Positions 17,363-47,132 of a DNA stretch of 64,000 bases are shown one piece after another. The stretch is from Planococcus shixiaomingii. Its GTDB lineage: Bacteria > Bacillota > Bacilli > Bacillales_A > Planococcaceae. Both the position numbers and the translations under genes were made by a program. Each line of letters opens with the position of its first letter. Within the stretch, counting starts at the first letter, position 1. The stretch lies in NCBI RefSeq assembly GCF_030413615.1, contig NZ_CP129236.1:3828001-3892000 (forward strand), given 5' to 3'. A model generated the notes under the pieces. It was not told where the DNA came from. It saw nothing but the letters and a program-made list of their open reading frames with translations, and did not search any database.

Positions 17363-17570
17363 AATATAAAAAGCCTCTTTCATCAGAAAGAGGCGCAGAA
17401 TAAGAGATTCTTCACCTCTTATCTTTCAGAGATTGTCATCTCTGATGGAATTAGCACCGTGCCTTGCGGGATTTTCATCCCGGCGCAAAAGCGCCCCGTC
17501 TCACAACGGTATTACGGTCGGTTGCTGGGCGTCATCGGGCCAATATCCCTCTGCCAGCTCTTGATAAGAG
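17363..17570 (-). promoter_or_regulatory. SAM-I (S-box) riboswitch of the mtnK operon
   Basis: Reading the minus strand from 17570, the conserved S-box elements appear in order: CTCTTATCAAGAG, GCTGGCAGAGGGA, TGGCCC, GCCCAGCAACC, GGTGCTAATTCC, and the closing GATAAGAG (17423-17416), which pairs with the first strand to form P1. A terminator follows: GCCTCTTTC pairs with GAAAGAGGC (17373-17394), then TTTTTATATT. AAGAGG of the P1 3' strand can instead pair with CCTCTT of the terminator. The switch should be OFF when SAM is plentiful. Confidence 0.95.
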
Positions 17571-18043: not shown

Positions 18044-18190
18044 TTCTTATTTAGAGCAGGTGGAGGGACAAGCCCTATGATACCCGGCAACCGGTCCAGC
18101 TTTGGACACGGTGCTAATTCTTGCAGCCAAGCGGCTGAGAAATAAGAAGTTGTTAAGCCCTTAACCTCTTCTTGTTTGAAGTGGTTTTTT
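18044..18190 (+). promoter_or_regulatory. SAM-I (S-box) riboswitch of the mtnWXBD operon
   Basis: The aptamer (18044-18149) shows TTATTTAGAGCAGGTGGAGG, GGCAACC, GGTGCTAATTCTTGC and a closing AAATAAGAA that forms P1. Two exclusive hairpins follow. The antiterminator pairs AAGAAG (18144-18149) and GTTAA with TTAAC and CTTCTT (18168-18173). The terminator pairs AACC-CTTC (18163-18171) with GAAG-GGTT (18178-18186), then Ts. SAM binding holds AAGAAG in P1 and so favours termination. I see no convincing -35 upstream; the promoter must lie close to the end of the repeat element. Confidence 0.95.
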
Positions 18191-21422: not shown

Positions 21423-24400
21423 GTGAGTTTGTTGAAAAAAATGCTTATAATTTTGTTGATTATCGGAATTGTCATAGCAATGCCGATTTTAATCTGGTTC
21501 TTAAAAGAAGAAAAAAATGTAGAAGTCGCTATCATCAACAAAACGGTGCCGAATGAAACCTATCGGGAGCATCAAGGGCTTTCTTGGCTTTTGAATCATA
21601 ATCGCTATGTCAATTCGAAAGGCCAGCCTTATGAAGTGAGCGAAGATTATTTTGGCTTTGCCCCTGATGAAGCTGGAAAAACTTATGAAACCCGTGCAGT
21701 GCCTGATTCATTGGAAGGGAAGGACCTAATCTACCTTGCTGATACATACGGAGTTTATAAAGAAGATTTGCCTTGGCAAGAGGAAGAAAAAAAACCTGGC
21801 TCCTCTTCTCTCCTTTATGGCGGATTGGAAATGAAAGAATGGCAAACCATTAAAGATCAAGTGAATGCACATGGCGCCGACTTAGTAGTTGAATTCAATA
21901 CGTTCGCTTCCCCTACACCGGAAGATGTCCGAAAAGATATCTCCGATTTTCTGGCACTTGATTGGAGCGGCTGGAGCGGCCGGCATTTCACAGACTTGGA
22001 TTTTTCCGCTGGAGAAGTTCCGCAATGGATCGTTGCTAACTATGAAAAAGAAGAGGGCAAGGATTGGAGCTTTACAGGCGGTGGTTTTATTCTTGTCAAC
22101 GACTTTGAAGGGACGGTGGTCGTCCTTTCTGAAGAACTAGGAGAAGTTGGCGCAGGCGGATTACATCTTTCCTTCACCGAAAAAGGACAAGAGCACTTCT
22201 CTCTTGATAAGAGCCCTTCTTTCGATTATTGGTTCGATATAAACGAAGCGGCTCCAGAGGCCCAGGTACTGGCCGATTATCAATGGAACGTGAAGGAATC
22301 GGGAACAGCCAAACTGAAAGAAGCGGGCATTCCTGAAGCCTTTCCAGCCGTCCTGTATCAACAGAAAAATCAGTCGAATGTTTATTATTTTGCTGGGGAT
22401 TTTGTAGATGTTGGAGAAATGCCAAGTTTCTATCGTTACGCAGCCTTCTCGAATATTCGCTCATTCCTGTCATTCAATGCGCTCGGTGGGGAAAGCAATT
22501 TCTATTGGAAAACCTACACGCCGATGATGAAAACCATTTTAGCGAATACGAACGACAAAAAAGTTGTATCGGAAAAAGCGCAATCACCTATAAAGGAAAC
22601 AGCATTGGTTCCCTTAGCGAAAACTAATGGCATCTCCTACCCATCCCGAATAAACGGCCAGGAATTCGAAGTCTACAAAGACGGTAAATGGGAGCCTTTG
22701 ACGATTAAAGGCGTTAACTTGGGAATGGCAAAGCCGGGAACTTTCCCTGGAGAAGCAGCGATTTCAAGCGAAGAATATGATCGCTGGTTCAAGGCCATCG
22801 GCGACATGAATGCTAATGCGCTTCGTGTCTATACGCTGCACCCTCCCGCTTTTTACGATGCATTAGCACGTTATAACGCCACCGCAGAAGAACCGCTTTA
22901 CTTGTATCATGGTATATGGATTGATGAAGAGCCTTTAGCTAAAACCCTGGATGCGTTTACTCCTGAAATCACGGAGAATTTCCAGAATGAAATTAAAAAA
23001 GTCGTGGATGTTGTACACGGAAACGCCAAGGTTCAACAACAACCGGGACATGCCTACGGAACTTATAACACCGACGTCTCCCCTTATGTTATCGGCTGGA
23101 TGATCGGTATTGAATGGTACCCGCTGACAGTGGCGGAAATGGACAAGGATTATCCAGACTTAGGCGATTTCAGTGGAAAGCATGTCTATACAGAAAATGC
23201 CAATCCAATGGAACACTGGCTTGCCCAGCAACTGGATACCTTAGCAGATTACGAATTAAACAACTATCAAAGCATGAGGCCACTGAGTTTCACCAATTGG
23301 CCGACAACAGACAATCTAGAACACCCAGCAGAACCAAGTGTCCAAGAAGACTTGGCGACAGTAGACCCTAATCATATAAAAGCAAAGGATGAACTTGAAA
23401 AAGTTGGCATGTTTGCCTCTTATCACGTCTATCCTTATTATCCGGATTTCTTGAATCTTGAAGAGGATTATACAGAATTTATCGATCATCGGGGCAAGAA
23501 AAACAATTATGCAGGTTACTTAAAGGATTTGAACGACTCCCATGATATGCCGATTCTCATTGCCGAATTTGGAGTTCCTGCATCACGCGGCATGACTCAT
23601 AAAAATCCTTTTGGCTGGAACCAAGGGTTCATTTCGGAGAAGCAGCAAGGAGACATTGCCAGCAGTTTGTATGAAGATATCCTCCATGAAGGGTTAATTG
23701 GAGGAATGGTATTTACGTGGCAGGATGAATGGTTCAAACGGACTTGGAATACGATGGATTACGACGATCCGGACCGACGTCCATTTTGGTCGAATGCCCA
23801 AACGAATGAACAGCAGTTCGGCCTGCTCAGCTTTGATCGCATGAAGGTCAAAGTGGATGGAGAAGATGACTGGAAAGACAGCCAGCTTCTCTATGAAAAA
23901 GAGTCCGGCGCCATGAAATCTTTATCTATGGATTCGGACGAACGTTATGTTTATTTAAAAGCCCAATTCGATCCTGCTAATAAAAATTGGTGGGGCAATG
24001 AAGATTTTAACGTATACTTTAATATCCGAGGCGACAAAGGGATACCTGTCGATTCCATGTCCGGAACCGCTTTTGCTGCAGACTTCCATTTGAAGATCAA
24101 AGGCGAAGAACAGGCTAATCTGTTTGTTGCAGGAAATTACGACAGCTTTTACTTTGATTATTACAGTCAATTGAAAATGATCCCTAAAGCAAAAAAAGAC
24201 ATCAACACCACGTTCCACCCAATCCGGTTGGCCTTAAACAAAGAAGTTAAGCGTCCGGATACCGGGGAAACCATTCCTTTTGATTCCTATGAAACCGGAA
24301 AATTGCAGTTCGGCAATGCTAATCCGGAAGAAGAAAATTATGATTCCTTAAATGACTATTACTATTCAAAAGAAACTGGCATTTTGGAGATTCGGATTCC

Positions 24401-24662
24401 ATGGATGCTGCTAAATGCAAAAGACCCGAGCCAGCGCCAGTTTATGGGCGATATGCAAAAAGACGACCTGGAATCTTCACTGACTGTTGAGGGAATTGAT
24501 GTAGCTGCCAGCCTGACTAAACCAAACGGAGGGATTTCAGAGAGCTTCGATGCTTCGAAACCCGCACGTTACGTATGGGAAAAATGGAATTTGCCGCAAT
24601 CTCAAGAACGGTTAAAACAGTCGTATTACATTCTTCAAAAAACGTTCGGTGAAACCGAATAA
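21423..24662 (+). CDS. Large membrane-anchored protein with TIM-barrel glycosidase domain, probable exopolysaccharide enzyme
   Basis: A 1079-residue protein with one N-terminal membrane helix (residues 5-26) and a long outside part. Residues 30-400 form an unrecognised alpha/beta region (DLIYLADTYGVY, ADLVVEFNTFASPT) reminiscent of glutamine-amidotransferase-like lumenal domains. Residues 420-800 look like a clan-A glycoside hydrolase barrel: GVNLGMAKPGTFPGE, Glu564 in GWMIGIEW as likely acid/base, Glu715 in PILIAEFGVP as likely nucleophile. Residues 820-1079 look like a DOMON/CBM9-type beta sandwich. It faces a polysaccharide synthase gene across a shared terminator, so I infer polymer trimming or processing. 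The GTG start is uncertain; TTG 21432 and ATG 21441 also fit. Confidence 0.7.
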   Translation: MSLLKKMLIILLIIGIVIAMPILIWFLKEEKNVEVAIINKTVPNETYREHQGLSWLLNHNRYVNSKGQPYEVSEDYFGFAPDEAGKTYETRAVPDSLEGKDLIYLADTYGVYKEDLPWQEEEKKPGSSSLLYGGLEMKEWQTIKDQVNAHGADLVVEFNTFASPTPEDVRKDISDFLALDWSGWSGRHFTDLDFSAGEVPQWIVANYEKEEGKDWSFTGGGFILVNDFEGTVVVLSEELGEVGAGGLHLSFTEKGQEHFSLDKSPSFDYWFDINEAAPEAQVLADYQWNVKESGTAKLKEAGIPEAFPAVLYQQKNQSNVYYFAGDFVDVGEMPSFYRYAAFSNIRSFLSFNALGGESNFYWKTYTPMMKTILANTNDKKVVSEKAQSPIKETALVPLAKTNGISYPSRINGQEFEVYKDGKWEPLTIKGVNLGMAKPGTFPGEAAISSEEYDRWFKAIGDMNANALRVYTLHPPAFYDALARYNATAEEPLYLYHGIWIDEEPLAKTLDAFTPEITENFQNEIKKVVDVVHGNAKVQQQPGHAYGTYNTDVSPYVIGWMIGIEWYPLTVAEMDKDYPDLGDFSGKHVYTENANPMEHWLAQQLDTLADYELNNYQSMRPLSFTNWPTTDNLEHPAEPSVQEDLATVDPNHIKAKDELEKVGMFASYHVYPYYPDFLNLEEDYTEFIDHRGKKNNYAGYLKDLNDSHDMPILIAEFGVPASRGMTHKNPFGWNQGFISEKQQGDIASSLYEDILHEGLIGGMVFTWQDEWFKRTWNTMDYDDPDRRPFWSNAQTNEQQFGLLSFDRMKVKVDGEDDWKDSQLLYEKESGAMKSLSMDSDERYVYLKAQFDPANKNWWGNEDFNVYFNIRGDKGIPVDSMSGTAFAADFHLKIKGEEQANLFVAGNYDSFYFDYYSQLKMIPKAKKDINTTFHPIRLALNKEVKRPDTGETIPFDSYETGKLQFGNANPEEENYDSLNDYYYSKETGILEIRIPWMLLNAKDPSQRQFMGDMQKDDLESSLTVEGIDVAASLTKPNGGISESFDASKPARYVWEKWNLPQSQERLKQSYYILQKTFGETE

Positions 24663-24669
24663 AGTTAAT

Positions 24670-24704
24670 AAAAAGGAGGGAGCCTCATTGGCTCCCTCCT
24701 TTTT
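24670..24704. terminator. Strong bidirectional terminator
   Basis: A perfect 15-bp stem (arm AAAAAGGAGGGAGCC, loop TCATT) joins the ends of the convergent glycosidase and glycosyltransferase genes. It overlaps the stop codon of the latter. Confidence 0.9.
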
Positions 24705-26121
24705 ATTCTTCTGAGAAAACGCCTTTGCGTTCCATGTCGCCCCATACTGATTTTTTCTTGAACGCATAAAACAATCCTTGCACACGCCAGAAATTCATCA
24801 GAATCCGATACCAAAATGTTTCTGTCAATGCATAGAAATACAAAACGAAGATGCTTCCGACTGTCGGGTATTTATGGTAAGTCCATTCTTCCAAAAGAAC
24901 CGCTAATGCTGACAGCAAGGAACCGTAAAGGACCATTACTAATAGCATGATTCCCGCAATCTTCGGGTCGATAAATGAAAAAACCAATCCCCCGACAATG
25001 ATAAAATAGCCTAACACTTCAAAGACAGCACTCAGCATTTCAACAAACAAGTAATAAGGGAAAGAAAAAAGGCCGATGCCCTTGTACTTCGGGTTGAATA
25101 GCATTTTTCGGTGCGTCCACAGCGTTTCCGCCAAGCCTCTTTGCCAACGGATCCGTTGGGCACGAAGAGAAGCCAAGGTGCTCGGTGCCTCTGTCCAGCA
25201 AACAGGATCTTGGATATATTCGATTCGTTGCTTCGACTTTTCGTCCTTGATCGACCTATGGAGCCTGACAATCAACTCCATATCTTCACCCACTGTGTCG
25301 GTTTTATAGCCGCCTACTTTAATAACACGACTTTTTTCAAAAACACCAAACGCCCCAGAGATAATTAGTAAGATATTAGCACGGCTGAAGCCGAGCCGTC
25401 CTATTAAGAATGCGCGGAAATATTCAATGATCTGCATGATTTCGATCGGTTTGCGCGGCAAAGCTATTTCCTCAATAACCGCTTTATTGATCTTACAACC
25501 GTTTGCGATTCGAACAGTTCCGCCTGTTGCTGTTACAAGTCCTGCAGAATCGATAATCGGCTTCATCGTTTTCAACAAGGCGTCTTGTTCAAGGATGGAA
25601 TCACCATCGATGGCTGAAAAGTATGGGTAATGGGAGAAATTTATCCCGGCATTTAACGCATCCGCTTTTCCGCCATTCTTTTTTTCTATAAGAAATAATT
25701 CTGGATGTAAGGCAGAACGGTATGCCCGCATGATCTCGCCTGTTTTAAAATAAGTCCGGATCGCTAAATCAATCGGCTCCATCTGGAATTGGGCAATGAC
25801 TTTGTCACTTGTCCGGTCTGTCGAACCATCGTTCACGACAATGATTTCATATTGCGGATAGTTTAATGCCAACAGCGAACGGACCGTACTGACTACCCCT
25901 GCTTCTTCATTGTAGGCAGGAACAAGGATTGAGATGGGATACGTATCTTTGTTAATCGACATCTCTTCAATTTGTTCATGGCGATTCAGTTTTTTCTCTT
26001 TACTTATCCGAGGACTGGCAATCAGGAACAATACCAAGTAAACCGTACCAGCAGCCATCATATAAAAAATTATTGCCCAAGAAATATATTCGAGAATGCG
26101 AGTGAAGAAAAAATCAGTCAT
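24703..26121 (-). CDS. Processive family 2 glycosyltransferase (polysaccharide synthase)
   Basis: A 472-residue membrane GT2 of the cellulose/hyaluronan/PNAG synthase type. After one or two N-terminal helices comes the GT-A domain: PAYNEEAGVVSTV, VVNDGSTDRT (nucleotide sugar), KNGGKADALNAG, AIDGDS (DxD metal site), GEDMEL (ED base) and QRIRWQRG, the QxxRW motif typical of processive synthases. Several C-terminal helices follow. I chose ATG 26121, with GGGGGAG upstream, overlapping the HEAT gene by eight bases. No PilZ c-di-GMP receptor domain is visible. Polymer identity is unknown. Confidence 0.85.
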   Translation of the reverse strand: MTDFFFTRILEYISWAIIFYMMAAGTVYLVLFLIASPRISKEKKLNRHEQIEEMSINKDTYPISILVPAYNEEAGVVSTVRSLLALNYPQYEIIVVNDGSTDRTSDKVIAQFQMEPIDLAIRTYFKTGEIMRAYRSALHPELFLIEKKNGGKADALNAGINFSHYPYFSAIDGDSILEQDALLKTMKPIIDSAGLVTATGGTVRIANGCKINKAVIEEIALPRKPIEIMQIIEYFRAFLIGRLGFSRANILLIISGAFGVFEKSRVIKVGGYKTDTVGEDMELIVRLHRSIKDEKSKQRIEYIQDPVCWTEAPSTLASLRAQRIRWQRGLAETLWTHRKMLFNPKYKGIGLFSFPYYLFVEMLSAVFEVLGYFIIVGGLVFSFIDPKIAGIMLLVMVLYGSLLSALAVLLEEWTYHKYPTVGSIFVLYFYALTETFWYRILMNFWRVQGLFYAFKKKSVWGDMERKGVFSEE

Positions 26122-27163
26122 ATGTCTCCCCCCCTTTTCTAGTGAGAACATGTTTTGCAATGTCTCTCGAGTAGGCATCTTCATCCCAAAAAGTCACTTG
26201 CTTTAACAGGGTTTCGCCTTCTGGAAATTCTGTTATATTCTCTGCTGCTGCAAAACGGACCCACCATTCAGAGTCGGAGAGCAGATTCACTAGTATCCGT
26301 GTATACTTTGTCAATTTGCAAGCTCCAACTAATTTCGCAGCATACATGCGTTCTTCCCAATGTACAGAGTCAAAGAAAGCAGGCAAAATAGAAGGATCTG
26401 AAATCTTTTTGTAATTGCATAAGCTATTCATAGCTTTTAGACGCACTTCTTTTCGCTCGTCTCGCAATCTTTTTTCAACAACAGGGAAAAAGATTTCATT
26501 TTTATGTTCACCACTAAATGCAATAACTGCAAACAAAACGTTATCAGCTATTTTTTCCCGTTCTTGTCCCATTACCAACGTTTTTCTCAGCAAATCATCG
26601 TTTAAACGAGCCAGCATTTCTTTTAGGAGACCGACCGATAAACTATTATTTTCAAAAATAACAGTGATCATCCGCTCATCTTGCAGTGTCGTACACGTAC
26701 GCAAGCATTGGCGAAATTCTTCATCTTTTTTCTTCAATTTTACAAAGTGCCGATATGTATCTTCGCGCAAAGAAAAAAGATTAAAATCTTCAATAAAGTA
26801 TAACGCGTTAATCCGTTCTGCCCATTTTCCATTTTTTAAGATGTAACGATAATGAGAAGCTAAATATTTTTCCGCAAGATCATTCAGTTTTTCCTTTTCT
26901 AGCTTCCCGTTGACGGTGGTGTGAAATTCATCAAGCATACATTCCATGACCGCAACTTGCATCCTCTTACTTTTTGGGAGATCCGGTTCTGATGAGCGCT
27001 TGCCTTCAATATATTCAATAAATTGAGGCTTCAGCGAATTTTGGAGAGCAGATATTTTTTGTTCATGTTTAATCGTTTTATACTTCCATGAAGTTAGCGA
27101 CAGCAGCAAAAGCAATTGTATTCCCAGCAAGCCTACCACCAGCCAAACAAACACCATAATCAT
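26114..27163 (-). CDS. Membrane-anchored HEAT-repeat protein coupled to the polysaccharide synthase
   Basis: A 349-residue protein with an N-terminal membrane helix and a largely helical cytoplasmic part. The C-terminal 150 residues contain HEAT-like repeats (RDERKEVRLKAMNSLCNYKK, ERMYAAKLVGACKL, EWWVRFAAAENITEFP). I chose ATG 27163, which has AAGGTGG nine bases upstream; the frame is open to ATG 27250 without a ribosome site. Its stop region overlaps the synthase start by eight bases. HEAT repeats are protein scaffolds, so a role as regulatory or assembly partner of the synthase is likely but not shown. Confidence 0.7.
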   Translation of the reverse strand: MIMVFVWLVVGLLGIQLLLLLSLTSWKYKTIKHEQKISALQNSLKPQFIEYIEGKRSSEPDLPKSKRMQVAVMECMLDEFHTTVNGKLEKEKLNDLAEKYLASHYRYILKNGKWAERINALYFIEDFNLFSLREDTYRHFVKLKKKDEEFRQCLRTCTTLQDERMITVIFENNSLSVGLLKEMLARLNDDLLRKTLVMGQEREKIADNVLFAVIAFSGEHKNEIFFPVVEKRLRDERKEVRLKAMNSLCNYKKISDPSILPAFFDSVHWEERMYAAKLVGACKLTKYTRILVNLLSDSEWWVRFAAAENITEFPEGETLLKQVTFWDEDAYSRDIAKHVLTRKGGETYD

Positions 27164-27310
27164 TAGCAAAAGCCACCTTCCACTTTTAATTCCATAAAAA
27201 TTCAGATAATACCCTTCTATTTCCTGAATATGAAAATTACTAAACACCATAAATTTTCAATATACCACTTTATAAGGCAGCTTCCTATTCTTAGTAAGAA
27301 AAGATTCCGA

Positions 27311-27350
27311 ACAAAAAGCAATGTCGTCCCGGCTCGGCAGACATTGCTTT
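27311..27350 (-). terminator. Terminator between the c-di-GMP-controlled gene and the HEAT-GT2 operon
   Basis: AAAGCAATGTC (27315-27325) pairs with GACATTGCTTT (27340-27350), with a T tract in the minus direction. It makes the upstream secreted-protein gene a separate transcript. Confidence 0.8.
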
Positions 27351-27368
27351 ACTAACACTCATTTATTT

Positions 27369-28241
27369 TTAAGGAGCCATCGTTTTCCAGCTGTCCACGT
27401 GGTGGATAGCGATGCCGCCGAATGCTGCATGGCCGGCATAAAAGCTGTTCACTAATGCAAGCTGCTCGTTCATCACAGCTTCTCCTTCTTCATAAAACGA
27501 AATCGAATTTCCTTCATTGGTTTGGTCAGTCTCCACTCCCACTACAACCGTCTTGCCATACTTCTGTCCAAAAGCCATTTCATTTTTAACAAGATCGATA
27601 ATAAGAGGGGCCGAATCACGGTAAGACATGATTGTAACGCTGTCCGTCTTAGCAATCACCCATTCAGCCAAAAAGCCTTTTCCATAAGTGTTTTTATAAG
27701 AAATTTCATCAAACCAGAAAGGCATATCAGCTTCCAAAGGAAGATTGAGGGCTGTCGCGCTATTTTTCGCTTTAGTTAATAAGGCTTGATAGGCTTTGAC
27801 AGTTGTGGCTTGGTTGGTATTCCAGCCGCTATATAAATAAGGTTCCACATCCAAGTGGATGCCGGCGAATTTTTGAGTTGCAGTTGAGCCGGCCTGATAA
27901 GTTTTAATCCATGCCATCAATTGATCCTGATAGACAGCCCCATTTGGCGCCACCCATCCTGGAGCGCCGTCCAGCGCAAAGATGCGCATTCCTTTCGCCG
28001 CTGCCTTTTCGATAAAACTGCGGTACACGGTTGCCGGAATATCGGAATCTATTTGTACGTATACCTTATTCACTCTTTTGCTTTCTAAAAAAGCGAGTGT
28101 TCCAGCTTCATCGTTGTATATCATCCACGGATTCCATAACCAGGTAGCCCGGACATTGCGGTCTGCCGCTTCTGCATTTCCAGCGTTTTGATTGAACAGG
28201 AACAATAACATCACGCCCGCCATAAGTAATTTTTTCATCAT
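27369..28241 (-). CDS. Secreted TIM-barrel protein, putative glycoside hydrolase, c-di-GMP controlled
   Basis: A 290-residue protein with a cleavable signal peptide ending near AEA-AD (residues 24-27) and no lipobox. The mature part looks like a TIM barrel: VNKVYVQIDSD, GMRIFALDGAPGW, FAGIHLDVEPY with an acidic DxE pair (Asp131, Glu133) like GH18-type catalytic motifs, EADMPFWFD, and VTIMSYRD. I do not recognise the exact family. Two adjacent ATGs (28241, 28238) follow GGAGGAG. The leader carries a c-di-GMP-I riboswitch whose platform can hide that site. It lies upstream of the HEAT-GT2 operon, so a role in exopolysaccharide handling is inferred. Confidence 0.75.
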   Translation of the reverse strand: MMKKLLMAGVMLLFLFNQNAGNAEAADRNVRATWLWNPWMIYNDEAGTLAFLESKRVNKVYVQIDSDIPATVYRSFIEKAAAKGMRIFALDGAPGWVAPNGAVYQDQLMAWIKTYQAGSTATQKFAGIHLDVEPYLYSGWNTNQATTVKAYQALLTKAKNSATALNLPLEADMPFWFDEISYKNTYGKGFLAEWVIAKTDSVTIMSYRDSAPLIIDLVKNEMAFGQKYGKTVVVGVETDQTNEGNSISFYEEGEAVMNEQLALVNSFYAGHAAFGGIAIHHVDSWKTMAP

Positions 28242-28246
28242 CTTAA

Positions 28247-28362
28247 CTCCTCCTTTTTTGAGCCGTGGCTCGCAAAAGGAGACCCAGGCAACCAGACGAC
28301 CATACGTTTATCTAACGCTTAGGTTCATGGCTTTGCGCCCTTCCCTTTCGAAGAAGTTTGCC
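28247..28362 (-). promoter_or_regulatory. Cyclic-di-GMP-I (GEMM) riboswitch with Shine-Dalgarno-sequestering platform
   Basis: On the minus strand the aptamer (28362-28287) shows the GEMM-I order: GGCAAAC, a GAAA tetraloop hairpin (CTTCGAAAGGGAAG), GGGCGCAAAGCC, CCTAAGCGTTAG and GTCGTCTGGTTGCC. Directly after it, CTCCTTTT (28281-28274) can pair with AAAAGGAG (28257-28250), and GAGCC with GGCTC, burying the ribosome site of the next gene. No terminator is seen, so control is probably translational. Whether c-di-GMP turns the gene on or off cannot be decided from sequence. Confidence 0.92.
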
Positions 28363-28380
28363 TTTTTCAAGATTTTTTTC

Positions 28381-28410
28381 ATTATAATTCATGTCTAGAT
28401 ATATAGTCTA
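28381..28410 (-). promoter_or_regulatory. Probable promoter of the c-di-GMP-controlled gene
   Basis: A perfect TATAAT on the minus strand (28386-28381) has a weak TAGACT -35 (28410-28405) 18 bases upstream. The start site would fall a few bases before the aptamer. Confidence 0.5.
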
Positions 28411-37843: not shown

Positions 37844-38087
37844 AAAAAACGGCCTGAGATGAACTCAAGCCGAACTATGTATAGTTGCCTTAATCCTCTT
37901 CTGGTCCCAATTGAGATAGCACACCTTGAGAGCCCGGGAAGGCAATCAAGATAGTCCTGCAGCTCTTAACTGCAGACCCAGCAAATAATACAGAGAAATA
38001 TTACAAACTTCGGCGGTATTTCCTTCTCTTAAGGATCAAAGCTTCTCAAACTCCCCTTAAGACTGTTAAAGACCGCGCCTCTACCTC
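37844..38087 (-). promoter_or_regulatory. Lysine riboswitch (L-box) with intrinsic terminator
   Basis: On the minus strand GAGGTAG (38087-38081) opens P1 and is followed by AGAGGCGCGG, GAGAAG, GCCGAAG, TTATTTGCTGGG, and CTGCAG hairpin; CTATCTT (37954-37948) closes P1. These are the L-box conserved elements in order. The terminator pairs CGGC-TGAG with CTCA-GCCG (37872-37850) and runs into six Ts just before the binding-protein gene. High lysine should end transcription early. Confidence 0.9.
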
Positions 38088-38130
38088 ACTTGTAATCAGT
38101 GAGGTTAAATATTATTTAATTATGTTCATT

Positions 38131-46949: not shown

Positions 46950-47132
46950 TCAACCAACTGCATATTTCGGCTCAATCCCTTTACAGGGAACGGAGGAACC
47001 AATCACTTGGGGCTAATTCTGCATTTTTGCAGAAAGGATGAGAGCAACTCTTTCGCCATCCTGCCCGTCAGCTAACTTCGTCGGCTAAAGCGAAGGAGGT
47101 CTTAAGACCACCTTTATTCGAGGTGTTTTTTT
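46950..47132 (+). promoter_or_regulatory. Cyclic-di-AMP (ydaO/yuaA) riboswitch with intrinsic terminator
   Basis: The conserved blocks appear in order: CGGCTCAATCCC, AGGGAACGGAGGAACCAAT, TTGGGGCTAATTC, a CTGCA/TGCAG hairpin, GGATGAGAGCAACTC, and CCGTCAGCTAACTTCGTCGGC. Two exclusive hairpins follow: an antiterminator pairing AAGG-GGTC (47093-47101) with GACC-CCTT (47106-47114), and a terminator pairing CACCTT (47109-47114) with GAGGTG (47120-47125) before seven Ts. c-di-AMP should favour termination. The rest of the leader, 47133-47363, shows no other element. Confidence 0.93.

Follow-up and report, generated by a model that had tools for sequence, protein, structure and literature searches.

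A locus that is likely to encode the Planococcus version of an exopolysaccharide system of the synthase-dependent kind, common in Bacilli and present in some other classes of the phylum, lies on contig NZ_CP129236.1 of Planococcus shixiaomingii, within a stretch of 64,000 nucleotides (positions 3,828,001 to 3,892,000; 64 kb of a 4.0-Mb genome) that is called the window here and in whose numbering coordinates are given. On the minus strand, in the order of transcription, stand a class I cyclic di-GMP (c-di-GMP-I) riboswitch, a gene for a secreted barrel protein of 290 residues, a gene for a HEAT-repeat membrane protein and a gene for a processive-type family 2 glycosyltransferase (GT2), and they are faced on the plus strand by the gene for a 1079-residue, N-terminally anchored protein with two modules, ghN and ghC. 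A first-pass annotation had proposed that these proteins form an exopolysaccharide system; open reading frames (ORFs), domains and riboswitch were checked in the sequence and all five parts were located where it had placed them, and the proposal as such is backed by synteny and by natural fusions. The HEAT-linked synthase system is widespread and apparently undescribed in the literature.

Conserved neighbourhood and natural fusions

The proposal had been made to depend on a neighbourhood conserved in other genomes, and such a neighbourhood is what was found. HEAT and GT2 genes were adjacent in all 21 loci fetched first, and in a sample of 398 Bacilli genomes HEAT relatives were present in 97. 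Of the 100 HEAT loci in this sample, 85 lie within 7 kb of a 1079-type relative or its N-terminal module: a ghC-type gene is the neighbour at 68 and ghN by itself at 17; the remaining 15 have neither nearby. A profile of 36 sequences recovered the 1079-residue protein or one of its modules in 107 of the 398 genomes, 89 genomes have a HEAT relative as well as a 1079-type module, and in relatives ghN (the first 380 residues) and ghC (the remainder) exist as separate proteins. The order cyclase, HEAT, GT2, 1079-type gene, REC and hybrid kinase is seen in L044-L047 and L049, whose cyclases score 418-463 bits with the cyclase profile and have GG(D/E)EF in all five. The core also occurs in other classes: the phylum sample of 398 genomes had ghC in 22, of which 16 do not belong to the class Bacilli, and among the 16 loci fetched from outside the class HEAT, GT2 and ghC stand together in six (L100, L101, L103, L106, L109, L110), fusions are found in two more (L102, L104), and eight are without HEAT or a strong GT2 match.

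Genus counts cover 46 genomes, the window's own included. A HEAT match was found in 39, a barrel match in 39 (one a fragment) and a 1079-type match in 38. Twenty-eight of the 40 barrel genes lie near HEAT, 16 near a 1079-type gene and 34 near one or both; of the 38 1079-type genes, 16 have HEAT nearby, 22 have HEAT or barrel nearby and 16 have neither, and for one of these isolated genes (G006) the gene and its HEAT gene each stand at a contig end. The HEAT loci fetched are of two types, one window-like (44-66% identity, L015-L023, n = 9) and the other at 29-34% identity (L024-L035, n = 12, including Alkalicoccus); a scan of genome contigs with the HEAT protein had Alkalicoccus urumqiensis as its sole match. 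In some genus genomes a GDSL/SGNH-type hydrolase gene replaces the barrel gene before HEAT (L020 11574-12302, L021 8097-8843, L022 10046-10837, L073 near 13136), where the polymer might be acylated.

Several relatives carry these parts within single proteins. One protein of 1378 residues (L102), whose gene is preceded by a GGDEF-REC gene, contains HEAT (Pfam, 262-340), GT2 (481-946) and ghN (1006-1371), while another of 1081 residues (L104), encoded beside a GT2 gene, joins ghC, a transmembrane helix (743-761) and HEAT (992-1040). Barrel and ghC are united in one protein in L055, L077, L078 and L079. These fusions link all four proteins and suggest that HEAT lies inside the cell, with the glycosidase module outside.

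The four proteins and their probable polymer

The GT2 ORF (24703..26184, minus strand, 493 residues; Pfam PF00535, 6e-21) contains DxD, GED and QRIRW, and DxD, GED and QxxRW are kept in all 14 aligned members, the window and 13 relatives. A hydropathy scan predicts three transmembrane helices, two C-terminal and one N-terminal, and the protein thus has the features of a processive GT2, namely DxD, (T/G)ED, QxxRW and C-terminal transmembrane helices. No PilZ domain was found on it in the Pfam scan, as the first-pass annotation had stated, and no MshEN domain, only GT2-type families matching the 493-residue ORF; with the cellulose synthase BcsA model it scores 46 bits, where the cut-off is 699. 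Translation probably starts at 26121 (472 residues), judged from the Shine-Dalgarno sequence, and that of the HEAT protein (26114..27250, minus strand, ORF of 378 residues) very probably at 27163 (349 residues) rather than at 27250: GGAAGG lies upstream of 27163 and no Shine-Dalgarno sequence lies ahead of 27250, in 10 of 11 aligned HEAT relatives the longest ORF begins within two columns of the 27163 start, and the public gene prediction (P0242) has 349 residues. The overlap of the GT2 and HEAT genes that had been noticed is therefore present, at a true size of about 8 nucleotides, not 71.

The HEAT protein was rightly described as a membrane protein, having Pfam HEAT repeats (HEAT_2, 3e-9) and one N-terminal transmembrane helix predicted in the hydropathy scan. 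Its arginines R146, R184, R215, R270, R301, R332 and R362 are invariant in 12 sequences and may be taken as candidate residues only, some of them perhaps being ordinary positions of the HEAT consensus.

The 1079-residue protein (21423..24662, plus strand) has a single N-terminal transmembrane helix (residues 8-26) and consists of ghN (about 1-380) and ghC (about 383-1079). E564 and E715 of ghC in ORF numbering (E558 and E709 on a 1073-residue numbering) are invariant in 36 of 36 sequences and in 18 of 18 of a wider set, and the motifs around them resemble those of clan GH-A retaining glycosidases. GH72 was weakly indicated for ghC in 2 of 18 (E 0.014 at best), ghC profiles had no firm match in PDB or Pfam, and the protein matched no Pfam family and no usable NCBIfam family; ghC is described here as a putative glycosidase-like module. 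A terminator-like stem of 18 pairs (24667..24707), listed for the minus strand, lies between this gene and GT2. In one genome (L069, G044:C2:1889606-1892790) the 1079-type gene is broken into two ORFs.

The barrel protein (27369..28241, minus strand) has a hydrophobic N-terminus that is signal-peptide-like as judged by eye. In fold searches its AlphaFold2 model (pLDDT 86.3, pTM 0.83) resembles GH18, Cwp19, SleL and the C-terminal domain of PgaB; the top VIA-align match is Cwp19, SleL is among the matches, and other TIM-barrel glycosidases match at Z values nearly tied with those of GH18 and GH18-like chains. The modelled structure is a TIM barrel close to those of GH18 and PgaB, with D131xE133 placed after strand 4 and invariant in 33 of 33 sequences. 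Pfam gave no GH18 match to it, and H129 stands where the GH18 motif DxxDxDxE has an Asp. A PDB profile match (10yv, 4e-16) is labelled 'Putative GH97' by its depositors, and the GH97 number was not adopted; the database name 'amidase' had no domain support in Pfam. Genomes of the family f22 have several barrel-domain copies each, some paired in ORFs of about 560 residues (e.g. G341:C1:5282792-5284429).

Such matches also fit another view, in which the barrel and the 1079-type protein hydrolyse the cell wall, their genes only happen to lie beside the GT2 pair, and the riboswitch controls peptidoglycan turnover: Cwp19 and SleL point that way, the barrel gene forms its own transcription unit, and 16 of the 38 genus 1079-type genes stand apart from HEAT and barrel. 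It is nevertheless very unlikely, given the operonic linkage in several families and the natural fusions, in which ghC is joined to the barrel or to HEAT, and ghN to GT2 and HEAT.

For an exopolysaccharide system, the preferred reading, the genes clustered with it in relatives bear on the substrate. A nucleotide-sugar dehydrogenase gene is in the cluster in 14 of 31 rows of loci (13 places) and a GlmS gene in 8 of 31 (7 places), both in three Bacilli families (f3, f22, f27), whose clusters often have a GlmU or GlmU-like gene too. Two of the dehydrogenases were tested; both passed the general model TIGR03026 (419 and 432 against 190 bits), and UDP-N-acetylhexosamine (UDP-HexNAc) models outscored UDP-glucose dehydrogenase models, all of these scores being under cut-off. 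By the logic applied to NfrB in the available text of PMC8669469, the linked GlmS and dehydrogenase genes suggest for the synthases of these relatives a substrate derived from UDP-N-acetylglucosamine (UDP-GlcNAc), which we infer for the window's synthase as well, across 36-39% identity.

The polymer could then be of the poly-N-acetylglucosamine (PNAG) type, the product of a divergent Ica/Pga machine with HEAT in place of IcaD/PgaD and the barrel in place of the PgaB hydrolase domain, and the locus does share with IcaADBC and PgaABCD a processive GT2 and a glycosidase domain of similar fold. This is unlikely, however: with the PNAG synthase model (PgaC/IcaA, TIGR03937) the GT2 scores 136.9 bits, the cut-off being 422.3, and the Pfam scan, which covered eight window proteins around the locus, gave no polysaccharide deacetylase of the PgaB/IcaB type among them. 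The dehydrogenase speaks for a uronic or some other product in those relatives, and the giant ghN-ghC protein has no known Pga counterpart.

The riboswitch and other routes of c-di-GMP signalling

The aptamer (28284..28372, minus strand, RF01051) scores 72.4 bits against an Rfam gathering score of 35. Within the genus, 36 of the 40 barrel genes have a riboswitch at most 1.2 kb away, so the one in the window is not a chance match, and the claim that a secreted barrel is under a c-di-GMP riboswitch holds; the four barrel genes without one are all within the six that stand apart. The surroundings of 22 barrel genes were fetched for a comparison of leaders, of which 18 fitted the motif and four were dropped. 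In all 18 a hairpin follows directly after the aptamer and its 3' arm meets the Shine-Dalgarno sequence (28248..28282, minus strand, in the window, where the arm contains that of the barrel gene); 176 of 180 cells are paired and one position has four pair types (CG, GC, AT, GT), the structure having been predicted from the same alignment in which pairing was counted. A promoter-like pair, TAGACT-18-TATAAT (28381..28410, minus strand; 10/12 in a consensus scan), precedes the riboswitch, and TATAAT recurs at this position in 15 of 18 leaders, that of the window among them; overall, the scan found no excess of promoter-like sites (13 versus 13.7 in shuffles). An intrinsic terminator lies between barrel and HEAT (27313..27349, minus strand; stem AAGCAATGTC/GACATTGCTT, then a T-run), and a terminator-like hairpin comes after 16 of the 22 barrel genes, including all six (window and L015-L019) with HEAT next.

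Since barrel, HEAT and GT2 are collinear behind one promoter-like site, the riboswitch might drive all three as one operon, c-di-GMP switching synthesis by transcription. This is quite unlikely, as all six loci of this order have a terminator separating barrel from HEAT and the expression platform is the Shine-Dalgarno hairpin of the barrel gene; these two elements make it most likely that the riboswitch governs the translation of the barrel alone. In a thermodynamic test with P1 forced or forbidden, Shine-Dalgarno accessibility shifted little and in both directions, favouring neither an ON nor an OFF switch; class I switches of both senses are reported in the available part of PMC6366702. Antisequestor pairings were sought by eye, but the candidates fail in some leaders and were not counted. 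The sole other c-di-GMP-I riboswitch found in the genome (L001 1501-1584, G000:C1:2974163-2974246) precedes flagellar genes that we take to be like flgB, flgC and fliE.

Cyclase-type neighbours were counted at 65 HEAT-GT2 loci, hand-picked, so that the fractions are not natural frequencies, with a profile that includes REC domains and a limit of 8 kb. A matching gene is present at 50 loci, at 20 of the 65 with an intact GG(D/E)EF and otherwise degenerate or REC-only, and because of these GGDEF/REC-type neighbours the synthases of relatives probably receive c-di-GMP or phosphorelay signals. Fifteen loci, the window among them, have no such gene, and none was found within this distance at the nine window-like loci L015-L023. 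At the 12 loci of the other genus type (L024-L035) a cyclase-profile gene stands directly before HEAT in all and a hybrid-kinase gene after GT2 in all, with a single-REC ORF in 10; GGEEF and an RxxD site are found in 10 of 11 clustered cyclases, the eleventh having GGEQF.

Fourteen aligned partners lack GG(D/E)EF, and L030 (GGEQF) and L075 (GGDQF) stand outside this set. RxxD is kept at the I-site position in 11 (L039, L041, L050, L051, L062, L064, L081, L091, L093, L094, L095) and absent in three (L037, L040, L060). Retention of RxxD beside a decaying active site is the pattern expected of a c-di-GMP receptor, though no proof of one; Pfam has a GGDEF domain in the partners of L040, L062 and L091 and REC only in those of L037, L041, L050, L077 and L085, and the reading is therefore weaker for L041 and L050. 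The window's own genome has 19 GGDEF domain matches and, away from the locus, two PilZ proteins. The earlier suggestion that c-di-GMP seems to target the accessory enzyme rather than the synthase thus fits only the window's sublineage, with its riboswitch on the barrel gene and no cyclase-profile neighbour; at 50 of the 65 HEAT-GT2 loci examined such a neighbour is present.

The sequence itself shows the parts, their synteny and fusions, the riboswitch, the Shine-Dalgarno hairpin and the terminators; the activities, the polymer, the complex and the receptor that we infer from them can be put together as follows. GT2 would use a nucleotide sugar, most probably UDP-GlcNAc, to make and extrude the polymer, and HEAT, translationally coupled to GT2, would act in the cytoplasm as an adaptor with a link across the membrane to the N-anchored outer protein. 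The glycosidase-like module of that outer protein would trim, release or anchor the emerging chain, and the secreted GH18-like barrel would cut the same polymer. Signalling may take two routes, one in many relatives through the neighbouring GGDEF/REC-type gene, be it an intact cyclase, a degenerate GGDEF mostly keeping RxxD, which may serve as a c-di-GMP receptor, or REC alone, and the other through a riboswitch that would set translation of the barrel gene only, in the window's sublineage where the gene of the first route is absent. A more far-reaching joint reading is put forward tentatively, as rather doubtful in its entirety: HEAT-GT2-ghN/ghC would be a new secretion machine in which the HEAT adaptor couples synthase to outer enzyme, gated in relatives by a GGDEF/REC protein turning from cyclase into receptor; in the window's sublineage, with that gene gone, HEAT or the pool of other cyclases would take over and the riboswitch would set only a dispersal hydrolase; and the product would be an undescribed UDP-HexNAc-derived polymer, amino-uronic where the dehydrogenase is added.

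Other riboswitches are found in the window. Two S-adenosylmethionine riboswitches (17416-17570, minus strand, and 18044-18148, plus strand) flank divergent methionine-salvage gene sets that adjoin the locus and are labelled mtn here, and there are strong matches to a lysine riboswitch (37909-38091, minus strand) and a c-di-AMP riboswitch (46959-47101, plus strand).

Comparison with known systems

Gram-positive matrix polymers and their c-di-GMP wiring are little known, and the database names of the proteins described here are generic or doubtful (hypothetical protein, amidase, family 2 glycosyl transferase). The set offers a surface polysaccharide open to testing, two candidate families of glycosidases that no Pfam model covers and a HEAT adaptor naturally fused to a synthase, and its relatives form a series in which the GGDEF partner is intact, degenerate or absent, with the riboswitch in the last group. 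Searches limited to open-licence papers gave nothing relevant that combines HEAT with a GT2, with c-di-GMP, with an exopolysaccharide or with a diguanylate cyclase, and no paper on this gene set in the riboswitch, Planococcus and chitinase literature; the available sections of a review on c-di-GMP (PMC8461298) and of an operon survey (PMC7112194) contain no mention of HEAT.

The statement that the set matches no known system stands for PNAG and cellulose, with the GT2 below the PgaC and BcsA cut-offs, while Pss and the Bacillus ydaJ-N genes are set apart by description only. The gene sets of Listeria Pss and Gram-positive Pel presumably differ from that of the window. Both are c-di-GMP-linked Gram-positive exopolysaccharides according to the available parts of PMC4125290 and PMC7112168. 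The ydaJKLMN operon of Bacillus subtilis encodes a putative glycosyl hydrolase and a c-di-GMP receptor together with functions for making and secreting an exopolysaccharide (PMC13274460, available text) and is alike in being a Gram-positive cluster that pairs a glycosyl hydrolase with polymer enzymes, a GGDEF-type gene, often degenerate, being present in many relatives here; in contrast, that text mentions no HEAT partner for ydaJKLMN, and the window's own locus is without such a receptor gene. PNAG systems, which have a c-di-GMP link in Gram-negatives (in part from the accessible text of PMC8461298), differ from the present locus, beyond the GT2 score and the deacetylase missing from the proteins scanned, in its HEAT partner, ghN-ghC protein and riboswitch.

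NfrBA-YbcH of E. coli, in the available text of PMC8669469, has a GT2 with DxD, TED and QxxRW, a dedicated diguanylate cyclase, a 14-nt gene overlap and a polymer inferred from a linked sugar-nucleotide gene, and all of these have their likeness in the window or its relatives; unlike the present synthase, NfrB has its own MshEN c-di-GMP domain and an outer-membrane pore partner, and the window GT2 is far below the NfrB model (20 bits, cut-off 1170). A precedent for a class-I-type riboswitch on a glycosidase gene is given by Aeromonas, where c-di-GMP riboswitches precede chitinase genes and are not, in the accessible part of PMC6366702, tied to a polymer-synthase locus. Most likely, the set works like the c-di-GMP-linked synthase-dependent exopolysaccharide systems, yet is a member of none of those tested.

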